Source: Tetmemena sp. SeJ-2015
Taxonomy: Eukaryota > Ciliophora > Spirotrichea > Sporadotrichida > Oxytrichidae
NCBI GenBank assembly: GCA_027382625.1
Contig: JAJKFJ010022785.1
Span: 221,590-285,589, forward strand
Length of the DNA: 64,000 nucleotides
Direction of reading: 5' to 3'
Shown: positions 10,381 through 47,785 of the stretch, in pieces
How positions within the stretch are numbered: the stretch's first letter is position 1
How the letters are laid out: the number at the start of each line of letters is the position of its first letter
The notes under the pieces: generated by a model
What the model was told of the DNA's origin: nothing
What the model saw: only the letters and a program-made list of their open reading frames with translations
Databases searched by the model: none
Made by a program: the position numbers and the translations under genes

Positions 10381-11026
10381 CCTCCCCTCACTTAACTCTC
10401 TTTTAAGCTCAGCAAAATATGATAATAGCTAGTTTTATATCTCTTTCATTCTTGTTTAGAGTCATCATTTATAGTGTACTTGAGAATAAGGCGCCCTTGC
10501 TCTATGCTTACTTAGACTGATTACTCTTCTAGTAGATACTGGTGATGCTGCTGTTTGCTTAAAGGATAGATTAGTTAGAGCTGACCACTGCCAAAGGGAA
10601 GAATATATTATTTGACTAGGCCGTAGAAGTCAGCTGAGGCTACACTATTTATTTAACTTGCGAGGAAGAAGGATTCTTCAGTAATTGGTAGAAGCAGATT
10701 TGTTGCTTCCATTCCTCTTTACCATGATTTAATTGTAGATCTTAGCATTTTACTGAGCGCTCTCTGTCTTTGACTCATTCTTGTCTGACTAGTTTGAATT
10801 GATGATGTTGTGTGGTATTTTGTCTTTTGGCTGGCTTGGATGAGCCTCCTCCTAAGAAACAAGTTCAGTTTATTCCATTTTGAAGAAGATTATTTAAATA
10901 GAGCTTGCTTTATTTCACAGCATAGAACCATTCATCTAGATTAATCAGAGGATTTAAAATAAAAATTCAGAATAGTGAGAAAGAGGGAAAGAGATAGAGT
11001 GCTGAATTATAATATATCTTGAAAGA
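10381..11026. other. Region between divergent genes, partly open
   Basis: This lies between the assigned start of the GAF gene (minus) and the next plus-strand gene. On the minus strand polar Gln-rich frames remain open to about 10860, so part is probably additional 5' coding sequence of the GAF gene split by unplaced IESs. From about 10870 to 11026 I see only AT-rich sequence, the likely shared upstream region. Confidence 0.4.
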
Positions 11027-12320
11027 ATGAGCGTCGCTAGTCATAACCAAAGTCCCGACTTGAATGCCTACAAAGCCACTGTCAGGAATCTTTACAACCC
11101 CCACTTCTCTAATCCATTCGCAACCATTGGGTATACAGATGATTAACAACCCAAGTAAGATTTGTAGTAGTATTTAACTATTCTCTTATAGAAGTTTTGT
11201 GCTGAGTAAGAGAGGCTCTACTGATGTCAGAAAGCTTGACCTCCTGATGTAGGCTTCGTCTCCTGAGAAAAAGCCATTCCAAACACTTTAAGCTGAAGAG
11301 ACCACAGCAAGCAATTCTCCCTAGATAATCCTCCCCTTGTTCTAAAGAGGAAGATAGATGAATTATTTCAGTTCTATAAGAAAGAGCGCAGCAGATCCAC
11401 TAAATCCAAAGTTGAGATTACTCAATTATTCAATGTTTCATTTGAGATTGATGAAGAAGAGTTTCAACTCCAACTAACCTGTTTTTGATGAGTCTAAATA
11501 ATTAGACAGATACCTATAAAATAATGTGGAGCTGAATCTTCAAGAGATAAACTTTAAGACTATTAAACTGCCCCTATAGTAGGGAAGCAAGGCTTTTGAA
11601 CTAAAGCAGAGGGGAAGGAATTTTCAAGCTCCTTTAGAGAAATAAATCTACAAAGATACACAAGAAGTTTAAAGCTAGAAGTAATCTCCAGACAGGAACC
11701 AGCTGTAGTCTTCGTACAACACCTAGTCTAACACTCTACTGAGATAAGCATATTTGACAAAGGCAAGACCATCAATCAACTTAGGCGAGAGCGTACTACC
11801 TTAAATTACGAACAGTGAAACTCCAGTCATGAAACTGAAACAGTAGAGACATTAAAGGAACAATAGCACCTTGTATGAGAGTGGGATGGGTAACAGTCTG
11901 GATATGATGTCTAAGTTTTTGAAGTCAAAAGGGTAGGAACAGTTATAAAGAACCTTAGCTATAAATGGTCGAGGCGCCCTTGCAAATGTCTAACTCGACC
12001 CTATTCCTTATTAAAACTTAGATAGAAGCTTTAATGGCTAAGCCAATAATTATCAAACAGATGAGAGGTTTAATAGAGCGAGCTAAGAGAGAGATGATCA
12101 ACAAAAATCCCTTTCTCCTTAACAAAATATTCGCTCTCCTTATGGGAACCACAATGGCTGTGAGATCAGATTAGAAGCTCACAAGAAATATGTAATTTCA
12201 GATATATATCATCTCATCATAATTTTTAGAGTGACATGTCTAGATTTTACAAGAATATACGTGGATAGCAGGGTTGGAGGGCATGGCAAAATCTCGTATA
12301 TGAGACCTAATATAAGATGA
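11027..12320 (+). CDS. Unrecognised hydrophilic protein
   Basis: The ATG at 11027 begins MSVASHNQSPDLNAYKATVR. After at least two frame changes (near 11220 and 11330) the frame DELFQFYKKERSRSTKSKVE appears, and from about 11490 a single frame stays open for over 250 codons to TGA at 12318-12320. Many TAA/TAG codons are read through as Gln. Composition is polar with scattered basic residues and no membrane segment except a possible one close to the end, where the last ~35 codons may be IES read-through. The gene is followed at 12433 by another plus-strand gene. I do not recognise a domain. Confidence 0.5.
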
Positions 12321-12432
12321 TGATGAACTTGAATTTGTATTCTTTACTTTTATTTAGAAGTTTTGTAGTTGGATGTATGATGAAGAATTAAATTCTAAGA
12401 TCTTCTGTAAAATAAATTTCTGATAGTTTTCA

Positions 12433-13701
12433 ATGGCTAGTTTTAAATACTTTGATGAGAGCTATAGCCGCAATTTCCATGCTTAGCAGCCTCCATCTGA
12501 GATAGAGGAGGACGCAAATTAAAAAGAGGAAGGTCTGCTTAGATTTCTTTATAGTGCTCAAAAGACAATTATTGCTTAATATATTATTGGATTTTTTTAA
12601 CCATATTATTTTATCTCTGTGATAAAAAGATAATCAAGCCAGTTCCAAGGAGGCACTACTATCCTTAAATTTGAAGATTCCTAGTCTATTTTTAACTTAA
12701 ATGATTAATTTCACTATATTACAGTGAAATGATGAAGCCATTCAGTTGTTTCTCGAGGGGCAATCAATTTTTCCAGCCTATTGCAAATCTAGGATAAGAC
12801 CTACCTGCATCCGCAACTCTTAAGATCCACGATTAGCCGAATGGCTTGAAATTCAAGACAACCTACAACCACTTCAAGCTCCTCAGTTTCTATTTCTAAA
12901 AGCAGCACACAGCTATTAATGCAAACAACATGTCCTGGAAGTCTCTGGTGAGATTGGACCCAGCACCTAACTTCAGTCTCCGCAACGAAAACTACTTCAA
13001 CTACTATTAAGATATCAAAGACCCACAGTATGAAAATTGCAATTGCTTCTGGCTTCAAAATCAAGTTAACATCTTACCAACTCCTAATCATGATAGTAAA
13101 TAAACATTATTTATATTAAATCAAAACTAAAGAGACTACGAGTTTCAAGTTCAATTCAGACAGTCGATAGCTCTACAAATCTACAAAACTCTTTTTGTCG
13201 GGGTGAGGGCCAAATACTTGAGAGAGAATACTTACAAGCTATCAATATAATAATTTATCCATTTCATAGCTATTTGTGTATGAGGAATTCGCAAGATCCA
13301 AATCCATGATTCAAATTGATCCCAGTTAATTGAAATTCTCCTTATAGGATTTTGCATCACACCCTCAAGAATGAACTAGTTGGCTTTTGCTTCAAGTATA
13401 ATAAGCAGGCACCCCTTCCAGAAAATTAAATTTTAACTATTTTTTATAAGAAAGGAGGTACTCATTTACTTTTAGTCACTGCTATCCACTCGACCCCAAG
13501 AACTTTAACTCCTTCATAGTCCACTAAGTGCAGCTAACCAAAAACTAGATAAACGTGAGATAGATTTTCAGACTGTCACTCTTCGATAACAGCTGGCACA
13601 TAGAAGCAGGCCATAGTGCCTCACACAACGGCTAGTACTCATTTGGATTCAATTTTAAGCTAAATCTCTCCTTTTCAGAGGAGAAGAAGGGACTCTATTG
13701 A
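12433..13701 (+). CDS. Unrecognised protein with beta-strand-rich C-terminal half
   Basis: The ATG at 12433 starts MASFKYFDESYSRNFHAQQP, followed by an acidic stretch. Coding resumes after an IES or intron around 12710-12730 and continues with KIHDQPNGLKFKTTYNHFKL, NMSWKSLVRLDPAPNFSLRN and a Cys pair in ENCNCFWLQNQ. The C-terminal third alternates polar and aromatic/hydrophobic residues (IFRLSLFDNSWHIEAGHS, YSFGFNFKLNLSFS) and ends at TGA 13699-13701. That alternation is what one sees in membrane beta barrels such as mitochondrial outer-membrane proteins, but this is only a resemblance. Several frame changes between 13280 and 13460 mark unplaced IESs. Confidence 0.5.
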
Positions 13702-13774
13702 AATTTTTGAATTATAGATATCTACTATAAAATTCTTTTATCTTTTAATTTGATACAATATGGAATGCTCTTTA

Positions 13775-14381
13775 ACTTATAATTATTGAAGAGTTGATTT
13801 ACAGAGCATGCCTCATAAACATTTTCGTAGAAGCTAACATAATGAGTCTCAATAAATGCATTAACCAAAAAATGTATTATATATGTATAGAAACAGAGGA
13901 CACATGAAGGATATGAGATAGAAACTACTTCTGTCAGCTTTTGTTTAAGACATTTTACACTCAACTGTTCGGTGTTTATGCAGGCTACATATACGTTAAT
14001 ACTGGCTCACTCTGGGCTGCAATCGCTCTTCATTCCTTATAAATAGGTATCTCATTGATAAATTAATTTTCGGATTTCCAGCTCTCTCAAACCTATTCGA
14101 TTAAGAATTCTCACTCACAAGGAGATAGAGTAAGTAAAGAGACAACTACTTATAAGGATTAAGATATTCCTAATAGCTCAAACTATGTTTGCTTTCTGTG
14201 ATTCTAATTAGTTTTTATAGTCGTTGGGTATCTATACCTGGTAGGAGTGGTGATATTTTTTAACTTGATAGGAAACTTTATTAATCCTAGTCTATACGAT
14301 TCCTGGTTGATTAATCACTATCAAATTATTATCACTCAAATTATTTTGATAAACAATAAGAGAAATAATCTTTATCATTGA
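13775..14381 (+). CDS. RCE1: CAAX prenyl protease 2 (RCE1-like), C-terminal half only
   Basis: RCE1 is an ER membrane protease that removes the -aaX tripeptide from prenylated proteins. The frame IIEELIYRACLINIF matches the conserved EE-x3-R motif; LFKTFYTQLFGVYAGYIY and VNTGSLWAAIALHS match the next helices and the catalytic His region; FIVVGYLYLVGVVIFF and NPSLYDSW match the last helix and tail, ending at TGA 14379-14381. The family has about 150 residues before the EExxR motif, yet the previous gene ends only ~75 bp upstream, so the N-terminal half is not in its expected place. The usual FCN after the second His is also missing where an AT-rich insert (about 14040-14075) interrupts the gene. 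The missing parts may be MDSs located elsewhere. Family assignment is fairly secure; completeness is not. Confidence 0.65.
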
Positions 14382-14530
14382 TTAATATATTGGTCATTTT
14401 TTGTAAATGAGTATTTTTATATCTTGCAGTATTATCTTTAAACTTAAAAAAAATTAATTTAGGTATTTTAAATAATATACCGTAAGTTTATTTTATAAAT
14501 TGAAAAGGAAGTGAGTGATAATAATATAAA

Positions 14531-16522
14531 ATGAAATTTAATAAGCTTTAAACAGATAATCTTTAAAATTACCAGTCCTCTCTCCAAAACAAAGTCAACT
14601 CCTCCAATCTAGACAGTTTATATTATAAGAATTTGTATGTTAAAGACTCTCCATAGTCCCCTGAAGATTAATTTGACACAAACTCTAATAAACAAATCGA
14701 CATCGGTAGCTTGAACAACAACCTAGAATAAATACAAGACATTAATATGAGGACATCGCCAAATTAAAAACAAGAAGAAGAAGGGTAACATGAAAAAAAT
14801 GGAGAAAGGATCGATGAAGAGCCATCTTTGATATTACACTTCGCTTCTTTCGCCACTCTCTTTGCTACTTAAATATGCTGGTATTCTCCTTTCGCAGCCT
14901 CAAAATAAATTTCAAATGCATTTGGTCTCAAGTACATCGAACTCAACATAGTATCCTACTATATAAACTTGGCCATTATGGCAGTGCTCTCTATTCCATT
15001 TGCGAAAATCATGATCAACCGACCATCCTTCGATTAGAGGATAACAATCATTTATTAAAATGGTATTTATTTTAAATCATAGCTTAGGCGTTGAGTTTGA
15101 TAGGGTGTACTCTGAGAGCGATATCTGTGGCAGGTGGTGAGTATGGAACATTCTGGGTTTTCGGTTTGGGCTAAGCACTTATCGGAATCGCCTTAGTTCC
15201 CCTCTTGCTTCATGCTCTCCGAATAGCTCAGAATAAATCAGTATCGCTCATTAAACTCTACCTGATTAATCTGATAGTGCTGTCTCAGTTAGGAGGAATA
15301 TTCTTCACTCAGTTTCTCTATTAAGCCATCTTCACTAGAGACGACTCCTTCTTCTACAACTACTAAACTACTCATTCAAAGATAGTAGGCTAAACTAAAT
15401 TGCGTAAAACATTTAATAAAATGGAGTGAATTTTATTTACATGATGGTGCAAGCATTCATACTGATTGTAGCAGGTGTGTCTAGGCAGATTATCGAGAAG
15501 AAATATTCTCCACAAATTTAACCTCAAAATTTACAGATGAGATCTCTATATATATATATTAAGTTTTATTTCATTATCCGAAAGCAGCAACTAACCATCT
15601 CTATTCAAATAAGAACTGAAATAAGGAACTAACTGGCTACTTTTATTTGCTTTTGGATTCATTAACGCAGGATTCTTTCTCTAATACATGAAATGGAACC
15701 ACATTGTCAACTAATTCTGCTTTACTCAGGTAAGTCTTATTATCATTTAAAATGCTAAAGATTAAGAATTTAAATTTCCCTTATAAATTAAAAAAAATAT
15801 TCTTTTCTGCAATCCTATTTCTCACCCTATATAAATTAATTCAATCTTTATTTAACTCAGATTAATTCTTTAATTACCTATCTCTCTTTATAAGGAGTTT
15901 TTATTGAAATTTCTAAAGATAAAATTAAATTTAGTTTTTTCTTGTAATAATCCTATTTATCTGTTTTTAGAGTGACTCTGAATTCTTCTGTAACTTGTTT
16001 ATTTTTGGGGCTCTTGTAAGTTGCTGCACCTACTAGCACTTTGAATTTTTTCACTCGAGGTACACAAAGCTATCATTGGCAGTCTATATAATCCTCTTAC
16101 TTGGAAGTAAGCAAAATCTAGGATTATATTGTATTAGGCTTGGGGGCAATGACTGGAACTTTGACAAAAGCAAACCAGAGTCTCACTACCTTCCTTGCAT
16201 TCTGTATAGGCTATTTTGTCGGCATTTGGTATAACCTAGTCTGAACATCGGTTCAAACGTCATTCAAAAGAGGAACCAGGAATTGAATCCTAGTGAATAA
16301 AAATAATTATTCTTTAAATCTTAATAAAAGGGCATACTATACACTTATTCTATGTTGCTAACGATGGGAGGAGCAATGGGTGCAGCAATTACAGCAGTTG
16401 GAGATAAGATTCACTACATGAACAGGGATATAACCACTTTCATTTATGTAGCAGAGGGAATAGTTGCAGGCGTCTTTATTATAGCCTATGTGTTGCTTAT
16501 GATATTGACAAGATATAAATGA
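14531..16522 (+). CDS. Major facilitator transporter, FLVCR/SLC49-like
   Basis: A long polar N-terminal tail (MKFNKLQTDNLQNYQSS..., ATG at 14531) precedes many hydrophobic segments: SLILHFASFATLFATQICWY, IVSYYINLAIMAVLSIPFAK, the GTFWVFGLGQALIGIALVPLL stretch, LLLFAFGFINAGFFLQYM, and a final helix VAGVFIIAYVLLMIL ending at TGA 16520-16522. The arrangement ILHF...W..F..........IN..S...N......IPFAK resembles the first two helices of the FLVCR/DIRC2 (SLC49) group of MFS carriers; that subfamily call is inference. Frame breaks near 15130, 15430, 15540-15590, 15740-16010 and 16270-16330 are introns or IESs. Predicted location is a cell or vacuolar membrane; substrate unknown. It converges with the Sfi1-like gene, with 54 bp between them. 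Confidence 0.55.
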
Positions 16523-16576
16523 AAGGAAGTTAGTTAACTAAGTTTAATAAGTCAAATTTATAATTTTAAGTCTCAC

Positions 16577-17626
16577 TCAAACATTTGCTCTCTTGCTTTT
16601 CTGTTTATTAATCTAACTCATCTTGTTTTCCTTGGACACTTTTGGTTTTGCCATTATGCTGTCTTAATTCGTCTTCTTTTGATTATCTTTGCCAGACTTG
16701 CTTATTTTCTAAGTAGTGTTGAAAGAGGATACTGATGAAGAACTAAGCATGCTCCTATTTAGAGTGCCTTGAGACTCAATCATTTTCTATTCGTAGATGA
16801 AGGTACTTAACTTTTGAGTTCTATCTTCAAAATATTGTTCCTCGTCTACTCTACTGTAGGAATCTCCCATATAGTTCCTCTCTTCTTCTATTGAATTGTG
16901 CATCATCCTTGATTCTAACTCACGATAATAATTATCTTCTAATCTCTTTATCTCATCATCATAATCTATTCCACTAGCAAAAATATCTCTCGTTAAACCT
17001 TTCCTGACCGTTTCCTGCTCCTTTTAGCCAATACTTTAGCTGCTTGACTGATTTATTATGGTCTACTTGAGTATACTCACTCTGTTAGTCCATAATGTAA
17101 GACTCTATTTCGAAAGGTTAAATTTTGAATTGCTTTATTTTACCTGATTGAGAGTACTGATATCTATTTTGTATCTTATTGAGTTTTACAAAGACAGACC
17201 ACTGATATAGCACCATCTGTGCGAGCTCAGAGTTTTTCTTAGTCTTGAAATTCTCTATCAGCCAATTCTTCTTCAAACTATCAAAAGCCCTCAACTACAG
17301 TTTCTGGTAATAGAAAAGCCTTTAATCTTCAACTCCTATATTTAAGATAATTAAAGATATTTATGTATCTTACGCTTAAAGTTTGCTTTCTCATTTAAAC
17401 TTAGCACTTGTAAATGAATAATGAGGCTACTGCTTTCTTAAGAAGCCCATTTTCGTAATGAGCCTAGAAATAATAAGAATATACCTTATTAATTAATCTC
17501 ATCTCTTGCTCGCTGAATCGCTCTTTGTTGCTATCAAAGAGAGAAGCACTTTTCTTTTGAGTTCAATTAAATTAATTTAAGACACTACTCTATGAATCTA
17601 GAGCTATCTGAAGCACTTAACATCAT
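16577..17626 (-). CDS. Sfi1-like repeat protein
   Basis: Sfi1 proteins bind centrin through repeats with spaced Trp/Phe residues at centrosomes and basal bodies. Here the segment LRAFDSLKKNWLIENF followed by MVLYQWSVFVKLNK shows two such repeat cores about 25-30 residues apart. The N-terminus is read from an ATG at 17626 (MMLSASDSS...), and the C-terminal third is Ser/Lys-rich, ending at TGA 16577-16579. A probable 21-nt GT-AG intron interrupts INK/AHYENG near 17465-17490, and another break lies at about 17550. The gene ends tail-to-tail with the MFS gene and starts 97 bp from the 3' end of the aminotransferase gene. Ciliates have many Sfi1/centrin fibres, which fits; with only two clear repeats the call is moderate. 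Confidence 0.5.
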
Positions 17627-17722
17627 CCTAGATTTCAAAGTCTTTATTCTATATAAATTATTCGATATAATCTTTATCTAAATATTGATATTTAATATTA
17701 GCCTCAATCAAGCCTATAAATT

Positions 17723-18370
17723 TCATTTAAGGAATTCTATGAGTCTGACTCTGAAGTCAAAGAAAGAGTCCTTGGCCATGAATATGTATATTCTGAAGAA
17801 CCCGTTACTGAAGAAGCACCAAGAGGGCAGAACCAGCACAGACTGCTCGTTGAAAAGTTGGATTACAAAGTCTTAATCGTCCTTGACCCCTTCCAGTTCT
17901 TCAGTGAGGATTCTTATCATCATGAACATCCAGCACTTGTTTTAATAGGCTTGATTCCACGAATCCCACTCAGACCCTCGTACACTAGTGCAGCCATTTC
18001 TGATAGTCTCTTGTTAATGGCATTGTAGTAGTTTAAAGGAAAAATTATATCATTATTTTCATTAGAATAGTTTTCATCGTAGCATTCAAAAAGCTTGGGC
18101 AGGGCGTATTGGATCAAGGAGCAAGGAGGGAAGATCATCTTCTAGAAATTGTCTAGGTGCTCAAGCACTTTATCGAAAAATCCATGGCGATTGTAAACAA
18201 TCACCCAACCCACACGCCATCCAGGCAGCAAACAAGTCTTTGACAGTGAATTTATGCTCTATAATTGAAATAAGACCCTATATAAAACTTACAATAATTG
18301 GAGTGTGCGAATCTATCTGCCCAAAAGGAATGAACTCAATAAATAATGCATAACTTTATGGATAGACTAT
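17723..18370 (-). other. Aminotransferase MDS 10
   Basis: Starts at pointer TTATGGATAGACTAT (18356-18370) with IVYPQSYALF, crosses a 34-nt intron (18259-18292), carries the PLP lysine and runs to the stop codon. A one-base frame conflict occurs near 17925 in the GCxFMM region. Confidence 0.8.
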
Positions 18371-21300
18371 AAGTATCTTGAGAAATTGATTCTTCATCTG
18401 CAAGAATGGGCAGCTTATACTTGTTGGCAATATCGACTATTTTCTGCTGATGCTCTCTAGTCCAGACAGAGCTGCAAGTTACTCGCACCTTAACTTTTTA
18501 GATGCTCTAGATCGATCTCCCATTATGAATTAATCACACACAGAAGATTATACTGTCTTAGGCTCAATTCCCAGGTTATGGCAGAAATGTCCAATTTCAA
18601 GATTAGCTTAATTCTTTTAAGCTTAGCCAAAATAGAAATTTCTTCAAGAGTCTGCTCTATGTTGAATCTGTTATCTGATCCTCCGTTTACTATCTCCAGA
18701 TTCTTATGAGCAGCTGTCCCTAAAGACATATTCTCTCCTCTGTTATAGCACCAGTAGAGTTCTCAGCTAAACTGAAATGCTCCACCTCTTTTCTTAGTTT
18801 GCCCATGAAGCTGATCTCTGCAGGATTAATAGTCACATTCAGTGAGGTTTCCAACAATGAGCAGACAGATTAGTTCAAGTTAGGTAAGAATTCTTTAGAC
18901 GGCTGTTTATTATTGAAACCTGTTTAGAAGCCCGAGCTAATAAAGTTCAATAATAGGATAGTAATGAAACTGTACTAAAAGTCGGTTGAGAAATGATGGA
19001 AAATAGAAGTTGTAGACCCTCTTTTAAATTTGTTGAGATTTAGAAGATACTCCTTCTTCTCCCTCATCCGAACAGATAAGATATTCTTGCAGGATAAAAT
19101 AAAGTAAGAAAGTAATCTAAACTTGATATGCTTTGCCGATTTATAAAGCTTAATCTGCGCAACCTGCGATAACTTTTCATCTGATTCTGAGCCCTCGGAT
19201 TTCTCACTAGTAGATGTGGTGACAAAGAATATGTGGTAGTATTCGCTGCTCATTTTTTGGGAGGTAGAAAGTTCAAAATCTTCCGCAGCTTGTTTCTCAC
19301 ATTCAAATCAAGCTCTGAAGTCACAACTACTCCCTCATAATTGCTAATCTATAAGAAGTTATTACAGAATGATATAGATATCAGAGTCACTAATTTAACA
19401 TTATAGAATGAAAAATGTTACTTTGCAGAAAATGGATTGTGTCTATTTCAGATATTGAAAATTGTGATGATGATTGAGTTGAGAGAGCAGAAACTTGGCG
19501 GCAGATTTTTGCTTTAGGATCTCATCGTCAACATTTGCAATTTTCGAGATGGACTGTATGTCTTCATCTTTCACAAATAGGTAATCATTTGGGTTGCTAA
19601 TTTTAGAAATTTGATTCAAGATCTGTACTCGCTGTCCAGATGCAGATAGCTTGAGTGCTGTCAAGAGATTGGTTAAATCACTGCCATAAGCTAGTAGGCT
19701 TGCTCTTTTTCCTTTATTATATAGCAAACGATATTTTAAGAGAATTAAATATTAGGAATGAACTCTTATCCTGGATAGACTGGCTATAAATATTTTTGTT
19801 ATAATGATGATGCCTCAAGAGCACCTTGATGATGAGTGTAGCCATTATGTACTCCTCTTTTAATTACATCAATAACTGCTTGGTCGTATCCTACTGGCTG
19901 CTCATACCCATTTTCTTTCTTAGGATCTCTAACAATTGATTATAAAATGTTTTATTTCACACTAGTTTGTTTGGAGGGTACAAACTATTGAATGAGTTGA
20001 TATCAATATTATTGTCCTCATAAGTTTGAGCCAATTCAGCGAGATCGATATCAGAGCATTGAAGGTTAAATTATATTTGGGTATAAAATGGCTGTGATTC
20101 CTAGGATGGCTATTGATGGCTATTTTGGCCACCATTCAGTTCTGAAAATTAGATAGTCTGTACAGATTAAGCTGCCTCTCTTAAGAACTCAGTCAGCTTT
20201 TGGCTGTTCACAATGTACAACTTATTTAAAAAAATTATTACTCACTACTTATTGTCTGTGAGGTCAACCTGATTCTACTTATCCTCTACTTGAGTTGAGA
20301 ATTTAAAATATTTTAAATATGTAGTCAATGTATATAAACAACAAAAATGTTCAAAAATTAATCTACTCATTGATATCTCAAATATTATCATAAAAAAAAT
20401 ATCTTATTCATTATTTTAATATCTTATTTTATATGATAATATTAACAGTTAAATAGCGATTCCGCAAAAATAGTTCAAATATACTTTGGCTTAAAATTTT
20501 CAGTCTCTTTATAAACCAATTATACATTAAATTAAAATAGAATGGAATTATAAACAAGGTATACCTCTTCTCAAGGAATTCTATGAGATACAAAATAGTA
20601 TCATCTTATTATGGATAGACTATTCCATAGTAGACCTCATCTGCAAGTTAAGAATTGACTCTACTATCTATTTAATGCTGCAAGGGTTGGATGGATTAAC
20701 AACATAGATTCCTCTGGTCTTGCTATCAATCAAGCTCTCTAGATGCTTTGAAATTCTCCCAGTCTTATTCAGGCTACATCAAATTAAAAGTATTGATGCT
20801 TACCAGAAGATTTATAGATAGTTGATTATGGCAGAGAGTGACAGCTAATGGGAAAGTAGGGTTAGGAACAAGGATATTGTCTCCTCTGTTGCAAAGAACT
20901 GACACAGCTGCGAACATGGCTCCGTGACAGGCGAAAGTCAAGAACACCTCTCTAGCTGTGAAGGGATAGTCTGGGTGTGAGTATCTAAAGTTAAATGATA
21001 AGGGAGATATCTTTTCTTACTTATCGACAATTGCTTGTCTTGCCTCAAGAGCATATAATTTTAAAACTGATTAGGATCTCCTAGAGCAAGGTTGATTACA
21101 GTCTTTCCATTCCTAACTGCCTCCATGGGATTGAACTTCACCACCTCGAACACAAAGTAAGGCATAGGTTGCTTAACACCAGTTTATATATTCAAACAAA
21201 CTGTGCCTCTTCCCAAGTCATAAGGCTCCTATCCTACAGAGGCTCAGCGAAGGCTTGTGGAGTAATAAGATCCTCATCTTCTGAAGCAGATGAAAATTTG

Positions 21301-21639
21301 GTGCCGTCAAGGTTGGAGCGAGATCTTGGAGAGTTGGCCTCACTTCCTCCCTTGCTTACATTGTTTCCCATGAAGGGTCTGACTGTAAAGTTATGAGAGC
21401 TTCTCAAGTTCTTGGTGCTGGAACCTCTCGGCCCATTCTTCTTGATTATAAAAAGAGGCTCAAAGTTCGAAGTCTTCAACAAGTCTTCAAACTTCTTCTA
21501 GCAAACTCTTCTCCTTGAGTCTCTAAGAGGCTGCACTTGGCAGTTGAATATGTTCAACAAAGTTGGCCAATCCTACACCTAACCAAGTCTAGAGCGCTCC
21601 TCATTCACAAGCTTAGCCAAAATTAAATATGCAATCCAT
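17723..21639 (-). CDS. Tyrosine-aminotransferase-like PLP enzyme, odd-even scrambled germline gene
   Basis: Class I PLP aminotransferase moving an amino group from tyrosine or a related amino acid to a 2-oxo acid. Ten MDSs lie in two clusters: odd ones in 21639-20609, even ones in 19929-17723. Joined through their pointers they encode, in order, VINLALGDP, NGYTHHQGALEA, GDNILVPNPTFPLAVTL, YNLLPEQDWE, VVNPSNPC, LADEVYYG, the PLP-lysine motif SLSKTCLLPGWRVGW and a C-terminal FFRIYIF Arg motif, ending at TGA 17723-17725. A ~170-residue Ser-rich N-terminal extension (about 21630-21180) precedes the catalytic domain. GT-AG introns lie at 20985-21020, 20774-20803 and 18259-18292; a small IES lies at 21223-21245. 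Two one-base frame conflicts remain, in MDS 4 and near 17925. The start at 21639 is tentative. Confidence 0.85.
18394..18478 (-). other. Aminotransferase MDS 8
   Basis: Encodes CSSVWTREHQQKIVDIANKY then KLPILADE. Pointers GCTGCAAG (18471-18478) and TCATCTGCAAG (18394-18404). Confidence 0.85.
18499..18522 (-). other. Aminotransferase MDS 6 (24 bp)
   Basis: Very small MDS encoding WEIDLEHL. Pointers TCTCCCA (18516-18522) and TAGATGCT (18499-18506) make up most of it. Confidence 0.8.
18541..18585 (-). other. Aminotransferase MDS 4
   Basis: Forty-five bases encoding CHNLGIEPK and YNLL. Pointers TTATGGCAGA (18576-18585) and CAGAAGATT (18541-18549). The two halves are one base out of frame with each other, unexplained. 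Confidence 0.75.
18597..20310 (-). CDS. Unrecognised protein, interleaved with the scrambled aminotransferase
   Basis: Minus-strand frames flank aminotransferase MDS 2 on both sides. The upstream part (about 20310-19940) reads FLREAAQSVQTIQFSELNGG and ends SFNSLYPPNKLV; the middle (19730-19440) reads KGKRASLLAYGSDLTNLLTA; then NYEGVVVTSELDLNVRNKLR; the last frame (from 19255) opens MSSEYYHIFFVTTSTSEKSE and stays open about 210 codons to TGA 18597-18599, only 11 bp above aminotransferase MDS 4. MDS 2 is also open in this gene's direction in another frame, so whether those bases belong to both genes or to one is unresolved. No domain recognised; frame shifts near 19725, 19440 and 19260 mark unplaced IESs. 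Confidence 0.5.
19811..19929 (-). other. Aminotransferase MDS 2
   Basis: Encodes DP-KKENGYEQPVGYDQ through NGYTHHQGALEA. Bounded by pointer TTAGGATCTC (19920-19929, to MDS 1) and the 13-bp pointer TGCCTCAAGAGCA (19811-19823, to MDS 3). It lies inside the unrecognised interleaved gene. Confidence 0.85.
20609..20647 (-). other. Aminotransferase MDS 9
   Basis: Thirty-nine bases encoding LADEVYYGIVYP. Pointers TCATCTGCAAG (20637-20647) and the 15-bp TTATGGATAGACTAT (20609-20623). Confidence 0.85.
20677..20747 (-). other. Aminotransferase MDS 7
   Basis: Encodes HLESLIDSKTRGIYVVNPSN then PCS. Pointers TAGATGCT (20740-20747) and GCTGCAAG (20677-20684). Confidence 0.85.
20755..20812 (-). other. Aminotransferase MDS 5
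   Basis: Contains pointer CAGAAGATT (20804-20812), a 30-nt GT-AG intron (20774-20803) and PEQDWE, ending in pointer TCTCCCA (20755-20761). Confidence 0.8.
20826..21053 (-). other. Aminotransferase MDS 3
   Basis: Encodes ALEARQAIVDK, an intron (20985-21020), then YSHPDYPFTAREVF through LAVTLCH. Pointers: TGCCTCAAGAGCA (21041-21053) and TTATGGCAGA (20826-20835). Confidence 0.85.
21071..21639 (-). other. Aminotransferase MDS 1
   Basis: Encodes the N-terminal extension and the start of the catalytic domain up to LALGDP. Ends in pointer TTAGGATCTC (21071-21080), which recurs at 19920-19929. Confidence 0.8.
21223..21245 (-). other. IES, 17 bp, pointer AGGCTC
   Basis: AGGCTC at 21223-21228 and 21240-21245. 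Excision joins QAFAEP to YDLGRGTVCLN within MDS 1 and links the N-terminal extension in frame to the catalytic domain. Confidence 0.8.
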
Positions 21640-22019
21640 TATAAATTGAATAAAACATATGAAGGTTATTAATTTTTGGCTCTTTTTCCTTCCATAGTAA
21701 TTGGAGATTTGATTTACGGTTTTAGGGTGGGTAGCTAAATAGTCTAATAAGTTCAATTTAAATTATTAAATTCTGAGAAGTTAATTTTATAATCGAATAA
21801 GAGGTGATAGTCCCTCTCCCCACAATTAGTCGCATACACTCCCAAAAACAATTAGAAGACAGGCACAATTTACTACGATTTATTTTCCAATTCTCTTACT
21901 TACAATAAATTGTAAGCCTATTTATCAAGAATAAACCCATGCACTTTAAATAGTCTTATTAAAATTTCTTAATCGAAACCACAAATTTATAATCCAAAAT
22001 AAATCCACAATATCTACTT
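21640..22019. other. Spacer, no gene seen
   Basis: AT-rich region between the start of the aminotransferase and the stop of the ankyrin/DHHC-type gene. No convincing frame on either strand. Confidence 0.5.
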
Positions 22020-25000
22020 TCAACTAAAGCTACTGAAATCTGTTCTATGGGACATCTAAAGATTTTGATAATCGATTTCGCCCTCTGCTCCACCACCATC
22101 TCGTGCCTTCTTATAAACTTTAACTCCACTCTACTTGCTTAATTTTTAACTGCCTGGCATCCTTCCGAATATAAGGAAGAACGCCAGATTCTTAATCAAT
22201 TGCCAGAGTGAAAACTGTCTCTGCAGGAAATGATTTTTCTTTTACTTTTTCTATTGCGGTTTCTTCTTGTTTTTGCTCTTTTTATTATGTTTGTGTTTAT
22301 GTTTTTTATTACTCTTAGTTTTTAACTTATTCTTCTGCTTCATTTGACTTGTTAACTTTGAGACTCTCTCCTCATCTTCACTGCTCTCACCAGTTTGTTA
22401 CTTCTACTCCTCATCATCATCGTCATCTTCATCTTCTGAACTGTGGGGAGTTGCAGATTCCAAATCAGAATCCTCACTGTCGAACACTTCATCAACTGCC
22501 TTGATAGAGAAACAGTGCTTGTACAGCCATATCCTATTCAGTTAAAGGAGAGTCAGTTCTCTCGATACAGCCACAGTCATGGAGACTATGTCATCTAGCA
22601 GAATTACTAGGTACACTAACATACTGCTGTTGTACAAGAAAAGTAGTTTAGTCCTCTCAAACATCAGCTCATACGTCTCTATGCACTAGTACAAGTAAAC
22701 TTATTTAATCAATACAGCTAGTAAGCAATTTTAACACATAGATTTGTATTCATTAACTAATTATAAATTCTATGATTATAGAATGTGTGTTTAGGAAGAA
22801 GATTTGCAGAGAGTAGAAGCGTAGCTGGACACCATCAACATCAAATAGAGCAGGATAAGAAACATGTTCAGCAAATTGAATAAGTAGTAACTCCGAGCAT
22901 TGCCACTCCCTATGCAACGGTTGAAGAATCTACTATGCTTCTGTCTATAATTCACACACTAACCACAGTCAAATTAACTAAAACTATTTAATTATTAGAT
23001 ACATTTATTATGAGTGTTTGCAGTGCTCTGTTTATTTAGTCCTCACAATTAGGCATTCTTAAAATTTATGAGTAAACAGAAATTGATTCAGAGCAAAAGC
23101 GAGTGCTTAGCTCTTCAATCTTCTTAAACTGCTAGCCCTCAATAAGGTAGAGTATCTGACCTATCAAGTTGGTATCTCTATCTCTGTAAATGTTCTTCTT
23201 CTCCACTCCTCCAAAGTCCAGTCTGTAGAAGTAGCATAAGTTCAGGCCTTGAAATAGAAGAGCCATGTGGAAGAACATAAGACAATTTAATACTTTTAAA
23301 TTTGTCTATTTGGAATAAGTATAGTTGAGTTGCTACTGCTTGAGAAAGATGTATCAGCGTAGAGCCAGTGCAGCAGATATAGTGATAGATAGAAAGCTAT
23401 CAACACCCAGTGATTGTACCGTGTGCTGATCTTGATTGTGAAGTAGCGGTAGATTTCTTTCACAAATATCATAGACCACCTGAAATTGTTCACCAGAGCA
23501 ATTAAGTTCTCCTTGAAATCAGCCTCAGTCGAAAATATTGCATCATAAAATAGTGTAATGCTAAAGTAGTAATTATGCATTCACTAAAATCCTGTTCTCA
23601 TACTTAGTGTAGATCTTGAGAAGCGAAGAGTCAGCTTGGCAATACCTATAAATTTATAGAATCATAAATAATTTGAGTTAATTTTTATTCTATAGACTGT
23701 GTCTTTAACAGTTTCTCCATTCTAATCTTTGAGTGTGATGTTGCATCCACTCTTCAAGAGAAACTTGAGCATTTCTGAATTTTGATTCTACACAGTCAGA
23801 TAAATTGGTGTTTGCCCCATGTTATTCAAACGATCGATGTCAAAGTAAAGAAAGTTGTCAGATATTGAGGCTTATGAGGAAGCTGAGGTAACTGTCGACT
23901 ATCTTCTGGCTTAATTGTCTTTCTGCTCCTCGTCTTAACGGTATTAACTTATCTCAAAGTTTAAAATGATTATATAGAATTAAATACTAAGTTAGAGTCC
24001 TCGCTAGATTGTTCTGAGTAGATGTGCTTCAATATCCTAGCTATATGGATAGCGTTTGATTTAGCCGCCAGATGAAGGATGGTGTTTCCTTGAATATCTA
24101 TGGTCTTCAAATCGCAGCCTTGCTTGAAATGCAGCTGCGTGAATATGGATAATTGACTACTCTGCACAGAGTTCAATAAAGGAGTCATTAGTGCGTTGTC
24201 TCTTGCATCTCTTTGACAAATAGGTTGGTTTGAAAGGTATGCAGCTGCTGAAAGCTCTCCACTCATGCAAGCCACATGGAGAGGAGTCTGCGCTCGGTAA
24301 TCAGTAGAGTTTACATCTGCATTAAACAGTTCCACAAGAGCTCTTAGAGCCTTAGTCTTTCCGAAATAGCTTGCATAATGCATCAGCTTTAAACCCTGAC
24401 TCTAGTCAATCACTTATTCCACTTTTATTTATCTCTTCGCAAGAAGGCAAATAGCGGGAAGGAACGAACCTCCCATTACAGTTTAAGAAAAGTCAAAGGC
24501 TTTAACTCATCATAAGCAATAACAAATATGCTAAAAGTTGTATCTTGGCTGAATTGTTGTTTCCTTCCTCCTCAGCTTAAATTTATCTCGCAAGTGACCT
24601 CTCTTTCATCTTTTTCATCTGGTTCATAACTTAACCCAGATTTACTCCTTCATCTTAAGCTTTCTTCATTATCATTCTCATCCTCTATCACTTCAATCTC
24701 TTCCTCCTCACTACTATCTTTTTATCTTGAGCTCTTCTTCTTACCCTAACTTGCATTCTTTGAGTGCTGGCTTGATCTCCTGTTACTCTTATAGGCAGTA
24801 TTTCTATTCTACTTAAAATCATCTGCAGCATAATAGACTTTATCAGGATCTGAGTTTCTTCTGGGATGCTTTACTTAAGACTTATTACTACCAGACATGA
24901 GTTGAGCCTCTGAGAGTGGCTTAGGAGTTGCACTTATTTTTTTCCCATGATATGGTTAAGAATCTAAGTCGATTAGCTAATGATGATGATCTTAAGTCTG

Positions 25001-25491
25001 TTCTTATTCCTCCTCCTCATCCTCCTGAGGCGGAGACTCACTTTCGATTAGTTCCGATTCCACATTCACAGAACTGAAATCAAGCAACTTAGCATTCAAC
25101 TAAAATTTTATGAATTTGCAATACTCTTAATAATCTAATTATTGGTAGTTGCTACATTTTCTATATTCTAATCTTGTCCGATGTAATCTTATTGCAAGTT
25201 GGAGAAGTTAATTCCTGGTGATAAAGTAAATTAACTCTCTCCCAATTTTTAATTATTAGCATCGTCATTCATATTCCCCTTTTTAGAAGGTGTTTCTCTC
25301 GTCCCTCTTCCTAACTCATTGAGCTATTTCACCTATGATGAAGCTTAGTCCAGCAGTTCAAAATCTTAGTACTGCTACTCCTCTAGGCCACTAATCATCT
25401 CGCTTTGAAGCATATCTGCTTAGTCCAAGCCAAATTATTGACTACTTAATTGCTGTTGAGGCTCTGTCGCATTTTAAATCGATCGCTCCAT
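22020..25491 (-). CDS. Ankyrin-repeat, DHHC-palmitoyltransferase-like membrane protein lacking a visible DHHC
   Basis: S-acyltransferases of the ankyrin-DHHC (HIP14) type have N-terminal ankyrin repeats, then helices around a Cys-rich domain. Here the N-terminus is acidic and Gln-rich (ATG at 25491; PPQEDEEEEQEQ; GKKKSSRQKDSSEEEE). Ankyrin repeats follow (HYASYFGKTKALRALVELFN, TPLHVACMSGELSAAAYLS, NTILHLAAKSNAIHIARIL), then helices at about 23580-23300. The Cys-rich part reads CGQCVNYRQKHSRFFN directly followed by RCIGSGNARSYYLFNLLNMF; the usual block with DHHC between KH and NCIG is absent. After two more helices comes a Lys/Asp-rich tail, ending at TGA 22020-22022. Frame breaks at 22690-22790, 22960-23060 and 24480-24600 are unplaced. 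Either this is a pseudoenzyme or the DHHC-coding MDS lies elsewhere. Confidence 0.65.
24630..24658 (-). other. IES, 24 bp, pointer CTTAA
   Basis: CTTAA at 24630-24634 and 24654-24658. It carries an in-frame TGA; excision gives NDNEESL-SYEPDEKDEREVT. Confidence 0.75.
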
Positions 25492-25525
25492 GCTTATTAA
25501 AACTTTGTTAATTTTGTAAACTTAA

Positions 25526-25858
25526 TCATAAAATATACAAAGCACTTATAAATACTCTATAAGAATAATAGCTGCGATTTAAATTCGAAAAGAACTTTGT
25601 GATAGCAACTCCAGGTGTGCTTAAAATAGTTTATAGCTTAGAGTCTTTCTACTTTTTCACCTTTCTCTTCTTCACTTTGCTGCTCTTAGTTTTTGGCTAT
25701 GGTTAAGAAAGCATAGTAATTTCATGAACTAGTGACTCTGACTCAGATTACTCAAGGTAGTGAGATTAATTCAAGTCAGAGGATTGTGAGTGAGATCTCT
25801 AATGCCTTTGTCTGGAATGAGCGAGAGTCTCCTCAATAGGCTAGTTGTGCCCTTGCAT
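25526..25858 (-). CDS. Small Ser/Gln-rich basic open frame, possibly a 5' part of the ankyrin gene
   Basis: The ATG at 25858 opens MQGHNQPIEETLAHSRQRHQ, then Ser-rich and basic stretches (KSSKVKKRKVKKQKDSK) to TGA 25526-25528. It is 35 bp upstream of the ATG used for the ankyrin/DHHC-type protein and in the same direction, so it may be an upstream exon or MDS of that gene rather than a gene of its own. The last ~35 codons are AT-rich and may be non-coding. No domain recognised. Confidence 0.4.
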
Positions 25859-26005
25859 CAATTTTTAATATTTATACTCACCTCACTTCCTATTTCTATG
25901 AACTTATAGTATTGATTGAGAACTGATAATAGGTTTTGTAAAAATAAAGTATGGAATAAGGATAAGGAGTAAGATTAGAAGTTAAATGACATTTATTAGG
26001 GAAGC

Positions 26006-26863
26006 ATGGCCTCACAGTAAAATGACTCTTTACTAACAACTGAACCAGCTCTGAAAGACAAACTTTAAGAGTTATCTGAATATTTTAAGACAGTAGAGAC
26101 TAAATTCTCCCTAAGAGAGGCTATTGTAAATATTCATCCAAAGTTAAAATTCTTAGAGAATCAGCTAAGATGACAGGCTTTTGAACCTTGGAGAAGTGGA
26201 ATTTGATCTTACGCCATTTACCTATGGAGAAATTGTAAACCTTACTAATCGAATTCACATTGTATTTCTTAGGACTTTGATTCCTTTGCAGATATCCTGC
26301 TCAGTCTCTAGTAAAATTACAACTTATTCCCTCCATCGGAGAATCCGTCTGCAGTCTTCTATGACCTAGGCTCAGTAAGTCTACTTGAAACTTATCTTCA
26401 TTAGGGAGTAGGAAAGCCATGCATCACAGCAGCTGCAACTCTGAATAACTATCTGCAAAAATGCGTTGGAGTCGAGTACCTAGAAGGCTTATACAATAAG
26501 TCCTTAGAACTCTCTGCCTTTTGGGCTGAATCTGAACTGAAGCTGAGGCATGGAGGTTCTTTGAAGCCACAGCTCATCTTTCTAAGAGATGACTTCTTTG
26601 CGAATACCACTTGGGCGGATGAGGTTGATGTCCTATTTATGAATGCTACTTGCTTCGAACCTCACATGGTTCAATCAATTTCAAAGATCTTAGTTGATAA
26701 ATTAAAGAAGGGGAGTATAGTTATTATGACTACCAAGAGTCTGATTTACCCAGAAATTCCAGGAGCCACAGACTAGGAACAAATCTTCAGGAGAATAGGG
26801 CCTGTAAAGAAAAAAATGTCCTGGGGAGAGACAGACGTCAACGTCTACATAAAATAGATATGA
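26006..26863 (+). CDS. DOT1-like class I methyltransferase
   Basis: DOT1 enzymes transfer methyl groups from S-adenosylmethionine to a lysine on the histone H3 core. The frame from the ATG at 26006 (MASQQNDSLLTTEP) contains the DOT1-type signature FTYGEI, then FYDLGS-GVGKP (SAM motif I, split by an intron at 26375-26404), VGVEYLEGLYNKSLEL with its acidic SAM-ribose residue, and DDFFANTTWADEVDVLFMNA (motif IV region with N). It ends at TGA 26861-26863, giving about 265 residues: essentially a lone catalytic domain. Two tiny eliminated segments (26164-26179, 26260-26279) must be removed to keep frame. Transcribed divergently from the Ser-rich frame at 25858, with 147 bp between. Whether it acts on histones is not shown; it could methylate another protein. 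Confidence 0.65.
26164..26179 (+). other. IES, 13 bp, pointer GCT
   Basis: GCT at 26164-26166 and 26177-26179. Removal of 13 bp deletes an in-frame TGA and joins KLKFLENQL to LNLGEVEFDLTPF. Confidence 0.65.
26260..26279 (+). other. IES of 17 bp (pointer TTG) or 11-nt intron
   Basis: TTG at 26260-26262 and 26277-26279; removal gives RIHI-DSFADILLSL. The same place contains GTATTTCTTAG, whose removal as an 11-nt intron also restores frame (HI-DFDSFADILL), so the two explanations cannot be separated here. Confidence 0.5.
26375..26404 (+). other. GT-AG intron, 30 nt
   Basis: Starts GTAAGT, ends TTAG; removal joins DLGS to GVGKP, the intact SAM-binding motif I. Confidence 0.85.
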
Positions 26864-26935
26864 GTCATCACTTATACTTTAAATCACAATTAAGAAATCA
26901 AAAACTAAGACCCTTAGATCTTCAAACTTATTCAT

Positions 26936-28910
26936 TCACTTATATTTATGTGCTTCATCAGTCCCTTTTTTATTGTCGGTGCCAACCATCCTTCTGAATG
27001 CCATGTTTTCTCTCTTCATCTTCTCGAGGATATCTTTCTGTGCGCTCTCAGCTATTTTCCTCTCAAACTTTTCGTTCCTAATCTAGTCTTTGAGGATGTT
27101 TATCTTTGAGCCATAAAATTTAATAAAAATACTATCATAGAAAGTTTGTATCTGATCTATGATTTGATTGCCTTAAGCTCTCTTGTGAGCCTGCTGTTCT
27201 CTGAATTCCTTCTTCTGCGCTATGAGTCTGTTCTTCTCTATCTGAGAAGCAAGCCCATAGATCTTTTGAGTGAGGAGTGCCTCATGATCCTATTGCTTCA
27301 TAGCAACTTGCTTTTAATGCATTGCAAGCTGCTCAAGCAATTTCTTATCCTTGATGTCAGCTATCTTATCATCTCTACGCTTTGCCTTCTCCTTGCGTTC
27401 TTGCTCTAATTTATCAATAGCCGCCTTCTACCTATCATGAATGTTGTACTGCTTAAAGAGTGCTTCTAACTCTCCTTTCTATCTAAGGATGCGCTGTAAG
27501 TCTTCATCTTCCTCCCCTAACTTTCTAGGCCTAGTGAGCACACTTTCTTGAATTTTGGCTTGAGTTCGCATGACACTTCCCATCAAGATGTCGTAAATGC
27601 CCTCATAGAAGTTCACCTTCTCGTTCTTTAAGTATAAGAGAAAGTAGTTTAAATAATTCTTGTTAGCCTTATTCTCTCTTATCTTGGTCTCAAGGAAATA
27701 TTTGAGTTCGTTCTGTTTGTCGAACTGCAGGAGTGTACCTGATTAGAGCAGATTCAGGAGCTCATTGTCAGAGAGTTTGAAGTAAGGTGATTGGCTTTGA
27801 GCTATTGTTTGCAGGTCTTAGTTGCTTCCAGGTCTCTAGTTAATCTGAGTTGGCTGACTGGACAATATCAATGTGAGAATTAAAATGGATGAAATACATG
27901 TGTTCTAAGAGGGATTTGACTCTAAATGAGAGGCGTTTTGGTTATTATGAGCTTGCTGCTGCTATTGCTGTGCTTGTAATAAACCAGATAGCTGTGAAGA
28001 CAAGTTAGCAGGTAGCTGAGAACCACCACTGAGGAGACTTCTAGCTAAAGCCTAAGCTGAGTTTTCTTTTGACTAGTTGCCACCTCCTTGGGAATTGAGT
28101 AGGTCGGAGAAATTTAGGAAGAAGTTGTTCACCATGGTTTGAGCTTAAGCACCTGAGTTTAGAGTTTAAGGACCCGATTACTAAGACACAGATAATGAAA
28201 TACTTTTTGGTGAAACAGGATTTGAATTCTTATAAGGATTTGAAAGAGCATTAGTGAGCTGCTTCTTCTTAGGGAAGGGAGGCATTAATTGATTTTGAGA
28301 TGCTGAAGGTCTTCTTTGGCTAAAAGAAACAATAATTTTATGGCTTTGCCTTTTCTTTGAGGCGGATTTCTTTGGCTAGGATGATGCTGAGAACTAGTTG
28401 AGATAGCTCACACCAGCTGGTTACTTATAGATAAGTTACATATGGAGGGTGGTTTTATATTATAGATCTGCTGAGTGGATTTGGTTTCCTTAGCCATCAT
28501 TATGTACTTCTGTTGCTTAAGAAGCACCTCTTGCAGTTCTTCCTTGCTCATCCTTTTAATTCTCTCCTCATCCATGACCATGGGCAATAAGGATTGTGAG
28601 CTTATGATGGCTGGAGGGGAAACATTACTTAGCTGATTTATCATCTTGTCTATTTGCTGCTAAGTGAAGTATATATGTGTATTTATTGATGAGTGGAGAG
28701 AGTAGGAGCAGAAGTGAGTTTCTTCTTTGAGGCTGATTGAGGCCTCTTAGCACTTTGCGGTCTCTTCTTCTGAGTGGAATGAGAGGGCTTAGCACTGATA
28801 CTCATAAACTGCTCTCTTTCATCTTAGTGTAGGTAGTTGTTTGACTTCAACTGGCTTTGCAAGTCAATGTCTATTCTCTACTTTTGCTTTCCTTGGGTCT
28901 TTGAACCTGC
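26936..28910 (-). CDS. Coiled-coil protein, possibly ciliary or centrosomal
   Basis: Minus-strand frame ending at TGA 26936-26938. The N-terminal part has KPSHSTQKKRPQSAKRPQSA, the RPQSA-type basic repeats common in ciliary and centrosomal proteins, then MVMDEERIKRMSKEELQEVL and a Q/N-rich middle. The C-terminal 250 residues are a charged coiled coil: NRLIAQKKEFREQQAHKRAQ, FYDSIFIKFYGSKINILKDQ, ILEKMKRENMAFRRMV. An IES with pointer TTG lies at 28654-28688. The start was not fixed; an open frame reaches about 28910 without a clear ATG, and 28920-29069 is AT-rich. Function is inferred only from composition. Confidence 0.5.
28654..28688 (-). other. IES, 32 bp, pointer TTG
   Basis: TTG at 28654-28656 and 28686-28688. 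Excision joins SAPTLSTHQ to IDKMINQLSNVSPPA and removes an in-frame TGA. Confidence 0.65.
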
Positions 28911-29069
28911 AGTCAATACCCAAATTTTAATCACTAATTTAATCAGGAGAGTTAATCTTATTTTGAAAAATTTAGATTGATTGATTTATCTGTAGAGTTT
29001 TACAGGAAATGTATCAATATGTAGAAAGATATTTATAATAGAAATATTTTATTAGCTATCTCAACATTT

Positions 29070-41275: not shown

Positions 41276-41533
41276 TTATTCTGAGAAGAAAGACTTCCTG
41301 ATGATGTCGATGCACCTCTGTTTGTCTTGGGTGAAGTGCTCTATCTTCTGAATGGGAGGGTAGTAGGGGTACTGCAGCACGAACTCCCCCTGGTCGATGT
41401 CGTGGCACACCAGCACTGACACCAACTCTGAGTTGTACAGGAAGTAGAGCATCCCCGTTCTGTCCATCTTCTTCATCAGGCTCCCGATCTCCGCTAGACC
41501 GGAAGTGCAGTTCACGAAGTTCTGGATGTCTAA
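41276..41533 (-). other. FAD-monooxygenase MDS, copy 1 (frameshifted)
   Basis: Encodes the part of the flavoprotein that follows the GD motif: LDIQNFVN, MKKMDRTGMLYFLYNSELVS, VCHDIDQGEFVLQYPYY, ending RKSFFSE. About 96% identical to copy 2 at 47528. Relative to copy 2 it lacks one base and gains one about 20 bases later, so residues NLHFRSAEI become NCTSGLAEI. Its edge TAA (41531-41533) matches the TAA at 36455-36457 and would join GDL to DIQNF. It lies directly downstream of MDS 1 of the permuted membrane gene. Confidence 0.75.
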
Positions 41534-47527: not shown

Positions 47528-47785
47528 TTATTCTGAGAAGAATGACTTTGTGATGATGTCGATGCACCTCTGTTTGTCTTGGGTGAAGTGCTCTATCTTC
47601 TGAATGGGAGAGTAATAGGGGTACTGCAGCACGAACTCCCCCTGGTCGATGTCGTGGCACACCAGCACTGACACCAACTCTGAGTTGTACAGGAAGTAGA
47701 GCATTCCCGTTCTGTCCATCTTCTTCATCAGGCTCCCGATCTCCGCTGACCGGAAGTGCAGGTTCACGAAGTTCTGGATATCTAT
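47528..47785 (-). other. FAD-monooxygenase MDS, copy 2 (intact frame)
   Basis: Same segment as copy 1 but with the intact reading IQNFVNLHFRSAEIGSLMKK, matching the family pattern LQxLVNVHF. It lies directly upstream of MDS 2 of the permuted membrane gene, separated by about 165 bp of AT-rich DNA. Its edge next to DIQNF reads TATAG instead of copy 1's TTTAG, so it offers a poorer pointer to the N-terminal MDS at 36455. The next segment after KSFFSE, expected to hold the GDAAH motif, is not in this window. Confidence 0.8.

Follow-up and report, generated by a model that had tools for sequence, protein, structure and literature searches.

The 64,000-nucleotide stretch of DNA analyzed here (the window; contig C3421, bases 221590 to 285589, from an assembly that totals 146.2 Mb in 5,213 contigs) contains, between about 17.7 and 21.9 kb, the pieces of an aminotransferase gene, which lie in two neighboring clusters and out of order with respect to their product. 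We consider the locus to be, very probably, a scrambled gene in its micronuclear (germline) form, with macronuclear-destined segments (MDSs) that are separated by internal eliminated sequences (IESs) and would be joined via pointers, the repeats that match at the ends of consecutive MDSs. The corrected map presented here has 14 MDSs, all on the minus strand, and 13 pointer pairs of 7 to 15 bp; in germline order, cluster 1 reads 1-3-5-7-9-11-14 and cluster 2 reads 4-12-2-6-8-10-13. The assembly also holds a second haplotype (haplotype 2), of which contig C802 covers window positions 6716 to 20134 and contig C1506 covers positions 20464 to 30489, at 95 to 97% identity.

Taken in the order of joining, MDS 1 (21679..21908, placed by haplotype alignment) comprises the 5' untranslated part, the start codon, which is also that of MDS 2, and ATGGAAGGAAAAAGAGC; its outer border at 21908 is an estimate, namely, the point at which the haplotypes diverge. 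Pointer AAGGAAAAAGAGC (21691/19714) connects it to MDS 2 (18619..19714; 1096 bp), which encodes most of the N-terminal part of the predicted protein and in which an intron was placed at 19399-19344, one choice among several possible. The 15-bp pointer ATTTTGGCTAAGCTT (21623/18633), identical in haplotype 2, leads from there to MDS 3 (21071..21623), with the remainder of the N-terminal part, a putative intron of 26 nucleotides (nt) at 21197-21172, and the start of the enzyme. MDS 4 (19811..19929; pointers GAGATCCTAA and TGCTCTTGAGGCA) and MDS 5 (20826..21053; intron at 21020-20985) are followed by MDS 6 (18541..18585; pointers TCTGCCATAA and AATCTTCTG; one base more than in haplotype 2), MDS 7 (20755..20812; intron at 20803-20774), MDS 8 (18499..18522; 24 bp; pointers TGGGAGA and AGCATCTA), MDS 9 (20677..20747), and MDS 10 (18394..18478; pointers CTTGCAGC and CTTGCAGATGA, each one base shorter in haplotype 2). 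A third copy of GAGATCCTAA, at 19514-19523 inside MDS 2, is changed in haplotype 2 and probably reflects chance.

MDS 11 (20612..20647) is 36 bp long here and shares pointer AGTCTATCCA (20621/19781) with MDS 12 (19754..19781), a 28-bp segment that encodes VYPGQEFIPFG, is identical in haplotype 2 at 28 of 28 positions, and is framed on its other side by GAGTTCATTCCT (19765/18337). MDS 13 (17729..18337) has an intron at 18292-18259 and lacks one base relative to haplotype 2 near 17930. The 15-bp pointer CTCATAGAATTCCTT (20587/17743), again identical in haplotype 2, joins it to MDS 14 (20465..20587), which supplies the final residues EKRD and the stop codon (20502-20500) after an intron at 20564-20507 and whose outer border, 20465, is merely the end of the haplotype contig. 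The short MDSs on this map measure 24, 28, and 36 bp.

An earlier note on this DNA had proposed ten MDSs in strict odd-even order (1-3-5-7-9-2-4-6-8-10), joined at nine repeated words. Each of the nine words is indeed a maximal exact repeat, with copies in both clusters that share one orientation and lie at the places given; the ten segments can be joined as it claimed, and the lengths of 24 and 39 bp given for two of them are correct on that map. Its segments 1 to 9 correspond to MDSs 3 to 11, and most of its segment 10 corresponds to MDS 13. The set of segments was incomplete: it lacked the MDSs at 21.9-21.68 kb, at 19.71-18.62 kb, and at 19.78-19.75 kb, as well as one from 20.59 kb downward, and the three long end words AAGGAAAAAGAGC, ATTTTGGCTAAGCTT, and CTCATAGAATTCCTT were absent from it. 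Eight of the nine junctions hold; at the ninth, the repeat ATAGTCTATCCATAA is genuine but probably does not serve as the working junction. If odd-numbered MDSs are to stand in one cluster and even-numbered ones in the other, each in ascending order, the arrangement holds for MDSs 3 to 11 and is broken by the run 4-12-2-6-8-10-13 in cluster 2 and by the presence of MDS 14 in the odd-numbered cluster. The weave is mostly, but not strictly, odd-even.

The disorder of the coding pieces can be observed independently of the pointers. When the closest named relative, a protein of Halteria grandinella (P0001), was compared with the raw window by tblastn, seven pieces of at least 24 bits alternated between the clusters, with residues 24-66 at 21.18 kb, 59-105 at 19.93 kb, 96-235 at 21.05-20.61 kb, 160-182 at 18.57 kb, 200-227 at 18.48 kb, 254-349 at 18.26 kb, and 350-419 at 17.93 kb; the remaining listed matches scored 20.4 bits or less. 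Colinear chains with this relative reached 389.7 bits in the unscrambled order versus 177.7 bits in the germline order, while 100 random orders gave a mean of 214.9 and a maximum of 326.9. For the relative from Stylonychia lemnae, the corresponding values were 347.2 and 218.4 bits, with a random mean of 197.9 and a maximum of 279.1.

The repeats shared by the two clusters exceed expectation in number and length. Compared with 500 Markov simulations, there were 16 direct repeats of at least 10 bp (simulated mean, 4.43), 5 of at least 13 bp (0.09), and 3 of 15 bp (0.01), counts that none of the simulations reached; at a threshold of 9 bp, 25 were found versus 16.3 simulated, and 11 of the 500 reached that number. 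Inverted repeats, used as a control, numbered 17, 6, 0, and 0 at 9, 10, 13, and 15 bp. The 16 repeats of at least 10 bp comprise eight pointers of the corrected map, one word that we presume to be a fossil (discussed below), and seven others, and the shorter words (7 to 9 bp) are singly unremarkable. Across the 49.9-kb ciliate part of the window, after low-complexity filtering, 14 of 20 direct repeats of at least 14 bp had their copies within 15 kb of each other, and three of these 14 sit at the locus, the presumed fossil among them. Per-junction probabilities were drawn from the real clusters, true pointers included, so that their product (log10 of about −34) is rough and was not relied on. 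A 15-bp repeat at 20003/33045, considered as a link to another scrambled gene, was set aside because it is AT rich and altered in haplotype 2.

Once the introns are removed and five single bases are read from haplotype 2 (three in MDS 2 and one each in MDSs 6 and 13), the joined segments encode conserved sequence in a frame of 892 residues, which is open under genetic code table 6 (TAA/TAG as glutamine). The enzyme part has a full-length match to TIGR01265, the tyrosine/nicotianamine aminotransferase family (364.3 bits, against a cutoff of 292.45; E = 7.6e-109), and further matches to PF00155 (E = 4.1e-55) and to two tyrosine aminotransferases of solved structure, 3pdx (E = 7.4e-79) and 3dyd (E = 3.7e-76); its named relatives are those of H. 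grandinella (47%) and S. lemnae (45%). The earlier claim that joining yields an aminotransferase is upheld at this level, with the correction that the joined DNA is not one open frame, given the introns and the five 1-bp differences. Since the score against the tyrosine transaminase equivalog TIGR01264 (341.1 bits) is below its cutoff of 474.25, we name the family only. The SLSK..LPGWRVGW stretch aligns with the corresponding region of the 3pdx and 3dyd enzymes, and we take its lysine to be the residue that binds pyridoxal phosphate (PLP). The product is described as a predicted PLP enzyme of the tyrosine/nicotianamine aminotransferase family.

The 486-residue N-terminal part had no Pfam match, no relative among the scored candidates of the protein collection (the 7989 and 7997 sharing most words), and no further copy in the genome outside the locus and its haplotype contigs. 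The 26-nt GT...AG stretch at 21197-21172 would fuse this part to the enzyme in frame, and the two probably form one protein of 892 residues. It is possible, though on the unlikely side, that two separate genes instead share one somatic chromosome, a gene of unknown identity ending at the TGA before 21194 and the aminotransferase starting at MPYFVF. The Halteria and Stylonychia relatives do stand alone, at 427 and 422 residues, and a TGA stop does lie between the two frames; such an arrangement, however, leaves just about 30 bases from stop to start, and the GT...AG stretch links both frames in a gene whose other introns measure 30 to 58 nt.

The two maps part company at the ninth junction. The earlier route passes from the end of MDS 11, which the copy of ATAGTCTATCCATAA at 20609..20623 overlaps, to a second copy at 18370-18356, inside the IES between MDSs 10 and 13 (18338..18393), and reads VYPQSYALFIEFIPFG; the route through MDS 12 reads VYPGQEFIPFG, which resembles VYPGHTFESFA in Halteria. 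Among 120 listed homologues of 175 hits, gathered with the MDS 12 version as the query and hence with a slight bias, the MDS 12 route scored higher with 109, equally with 6, and lower with 5, by margins that are small (e.g., 397 versus 388 bits for P0001). The IES differs from its counterpart in haplotype 2 by 7 mismatches and 5 gap columns, and the word at 18370 is altered there, leaving that haplotype without one of the two copies, whereas MDS 12 is unchanged. We regard it as very improbable that the earlier map is exact, with ten MDSs in strict odd-even order and ATAGTCTATCCATAA as the last pointer: the 15-bp word does occur in both clusters and joining through it leaves the frame open, but the homologue scores, the state of the word in haplotype 2, the corrected joins, and the three further long end words left unused all led us to reject it as the full map.

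We suggest instead that ATAGTCTATCCATAA is probably a fossil inside the IES. The IES at 18338..18393 has 12 bp in common with joined MDSs 11 and 12, a similarity equaled in only 1 of 500 shuffles, and the simplest reading is that it is a decayed copy of those two MDSs, as predicted by the duplication-and-decay model of scrambling, which is described in PMC9797194. The lengths of the exchanged MDSs and IESs correlate for the seven simple pairs (Spearman coefficient, 0.79; P = 0.036) but not clearly for all nine (coefficient, 0.52; P = 0.15). There is also a slim chance that the rearrangement map has been caught in the course of change, with the old 15-bp junction and the junctions of the 28-bp MDS both usable in the window haplotype, where the frame stays open at the old junction as well, and with newborn IESs in haplotype 2. 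If so, a single germline locus could yield two somatic versions of the protein differing in one loop.

Haplotype 2 provides a second view of the arrangement, as C802 and C1506 each repeat the MDS order of their own cluster. By script output, 10 of the 13 pointers were the same and 3 differed; we read the difference at the MDS 1/2 pointer as an alignment artifact because the same 13 bases are present in haplotype 2, which leaves 11 of 13 identical and two (MDS 9/10 and MDS 10/11) one base shorter. The IESs had 17 mismatches over 332 aligned bases and the MDSs 44 over 3139, sums that count pointers twice and include a poorly aligned stretch of MDS 2. The joined frame is under purifying selection, MDS 2 included: the enzyme part (406 residues) has 13 synonymous differences and 1 nonsynonymous difference (proportions per nonsynonymous and synonymous site [pN/pS], 0.0010/0.0496), and the N-terminal part has 19 and 5 (0.0047/0.0635). 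These counts skip gapped codons (1 in the enzyme and 32 in the N-terminal part), drop haplotype 2 insertions of more than one base, and rest on the chosen MDS 2 intron border. That the locus is a misassembly or a decayed pseudogene copy is scarcely credible, despite the 1-bp frame breaks and the joining of the contig to bacterial-type DNA at about 49.9 kb, and we reject the former because C802 and C1506, at about 95 to 97% identity, show the same within-cluster order and the latter because of the substitution pattern.

Several observations weigh against a working scrambled gene as mapped here. Searches of the same assembly that used portions of MDS 13 and cluster 1 as DNA queries returned germline contigs only; because the macronuclear copy was thus not found, we infer the rearrangement itself. 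Taken by itself, the window sequence contains five 1-bp breaks of the coding frame, which were read from haplotype 2, and both the MDS 2 intron and the fusion through the 26-nt intron are choices rather than observations. MDS 14 contributes just four residues. The coverage by haplotype 2 excludes the stretch between the clusters, and several short IESs are identical between the haplotypes, so that IES divergence alone is no border marker. Finally, no similarity between IES and MDS was seen in the other eight of the nine exchange pairs.

Elsewhere in the assembly, an unscrambled paralogue with short introns lies on contig C3137 (2887-4353). It is linear, matching residues 1-50, 48-95, and 95-417 of the Stylonychia protein at ascending positions, and partial aminotransferase copies are present at the contig ends of C1404 and C4850. 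In a tree of 25 selected rows, the scrambled gene groups with Halteria (support, 100/98) and the C3137 gene with S. lemnae (82/74, short of the value that the tool treats as firm support); both fall within a nine-row set (100/100) whose other five rows are unnamed metagenome proteins. We infer that the scrambled gene and the C3137 copy split before the divergence of Halteria from this species and that, of the two, only one is scrambled here.

Two related insertions in C802 (at about 11561-11677 and 12339-12531 of that contig) have no counterpart in the window. One lies in MDS 13 at its intron end and spans 117 bp, including one copy of a 13-bp duplication, ATTATAGAGCATA; the other lies in MDS 2 and is flanked by the 13-bp duplication GGTTTCAATAATA. 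The core word of the family occurs 516 times in the genome with at most one mismatch, versus 0 for the reversed control. Of 12 further copies of the element, nine have exact end duplications of 11 to 15 bp, two (L032 and L038) have 13-bp duplications with one mismatch, judged by eye, and one (L030) has no convincing duplication. We call these insertions SINE-like, after short interspersed nuclear elements (SINEs), only because of their simple-repeat end, duplications, and copy number. Putative SINEs are reported from Paramecium germline DNA in PMC5405496; the word SINE is not used in PMC9797194. It is possible that the insertions in the two MDSs are newborn IESs, whose duplications would serve as pointers. 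Beside the insertion in MDS 2, about 72 bp of that MDS (window 18921-19003; open frame in the window) are missing from C802.

The reading of TAA/TAG as glutamine was found together with C4A4 telomere repeats, a combination that we take to fit spirotrich ciliates other than Euplotes. The assembly has 67 occurrences of the telomere word CCCCAAAACCCCAAAACCCC, including 9 at contig base 1 (the backward-read control is the same word and hence uninformative), a count that would fit a spirotrich and appears too low for an assembly of somatic nanochromosomes. There is good support for identifying the locus as a scrambled germline aminotransferase gene of a spirotrich-type ciliate. The contig probably has a chimeric join at about 49915, 28 kb from the locus, because the first 49.9 kb are ciliate-like, G+C content then jumps from 0.39 to 0.65-0.70 per kb, and the GC-rich part matches FtsW/RodA (PF01098; E = 1.4e-40). 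The neighboring ciliate DNA includes an ankyrin-repeat coding stretch (23829-24506, minus strand), a DOT1-like stretch (26207-26860, plus strand; PF08123; E = 3e-9), and a GC-rich block of about 250 bp present at 41276-41527 and 47528-47779, a near-exact repeat 6.25 kb apart that could be a duplicated segment. Between the two clusters, a block at about 19955-20134 falls in no MDS of the corrected map and shows good conservation in haplotype 2 as far as the contig edge; it is perhaps a piece of another gene.

By analogy with established ciliate biology, RNA-guided rearrangement in the developing macronucleus would join the 14 MDSs of the two neighboring clusters at the 13 pointer pairs, retaining one copy per pair. 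This would yield an approximately 3-kb somatic chromosome that encodes an aminotransferase preceded by a coding part without known relatives, an N-terminal extension that sets the gene apart from TIGR01265 aminotransferases and, compared as protein, from its Halteria relative. The weave itself may have arisen through local duplication followed by decay of alternate copies, with a trace in one of nine MDS/IES exchange pairs.

According to PMC9797194, 15.6% of Oxytricha genes and 13.6% of Tetmemena genes are scrambled. The odd-even genes of Oxytricha trifallax, Tetmemena sp., and Euplotes woodruffi described there resemble the present one: MDSs alternate between two clusters, pointers and IESs are short, and an IES shows a trace of local paralogy to the MDSs exchanged for it; unlike them, this gene has MDSs 4, 12, and 2 out of odd-even step. 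PMC10901763 reports scrambling in all four spirotrichs compared, with H. grandinella and Strombidium cf. sulcatum among the spirotrichs with scrambled germline genes. The nested and tangled "Russian doll genes" of Oxytricha (PMC5940158) are similar in their interleaved pieces and their deviation from simple patterns; they differ in that no nested second gene is shown here and in that a conserved block lies between the clusters. We found no paper on a scrambled tyrosine aminotransferase or other aminotransferase in ciliate germline DNA in the open-license literature (subscription journals and rearrangement databases lay outside that search), in agreement with the earlier note, to which no such description was known.

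Scrambled genes are already known in thousands, and this locus adds one more enzyme gene to them; its additional features are a probable fossil junction and SINE-like insertions specific to one haplotype. That two haplotypes and a probable fossil junction can be studied here alongside an unscrambled paralogue makes it a compact test case for scrambling through duplication and decay, and it also offers a case for asking whether retroposon duplications can turn into pointers.

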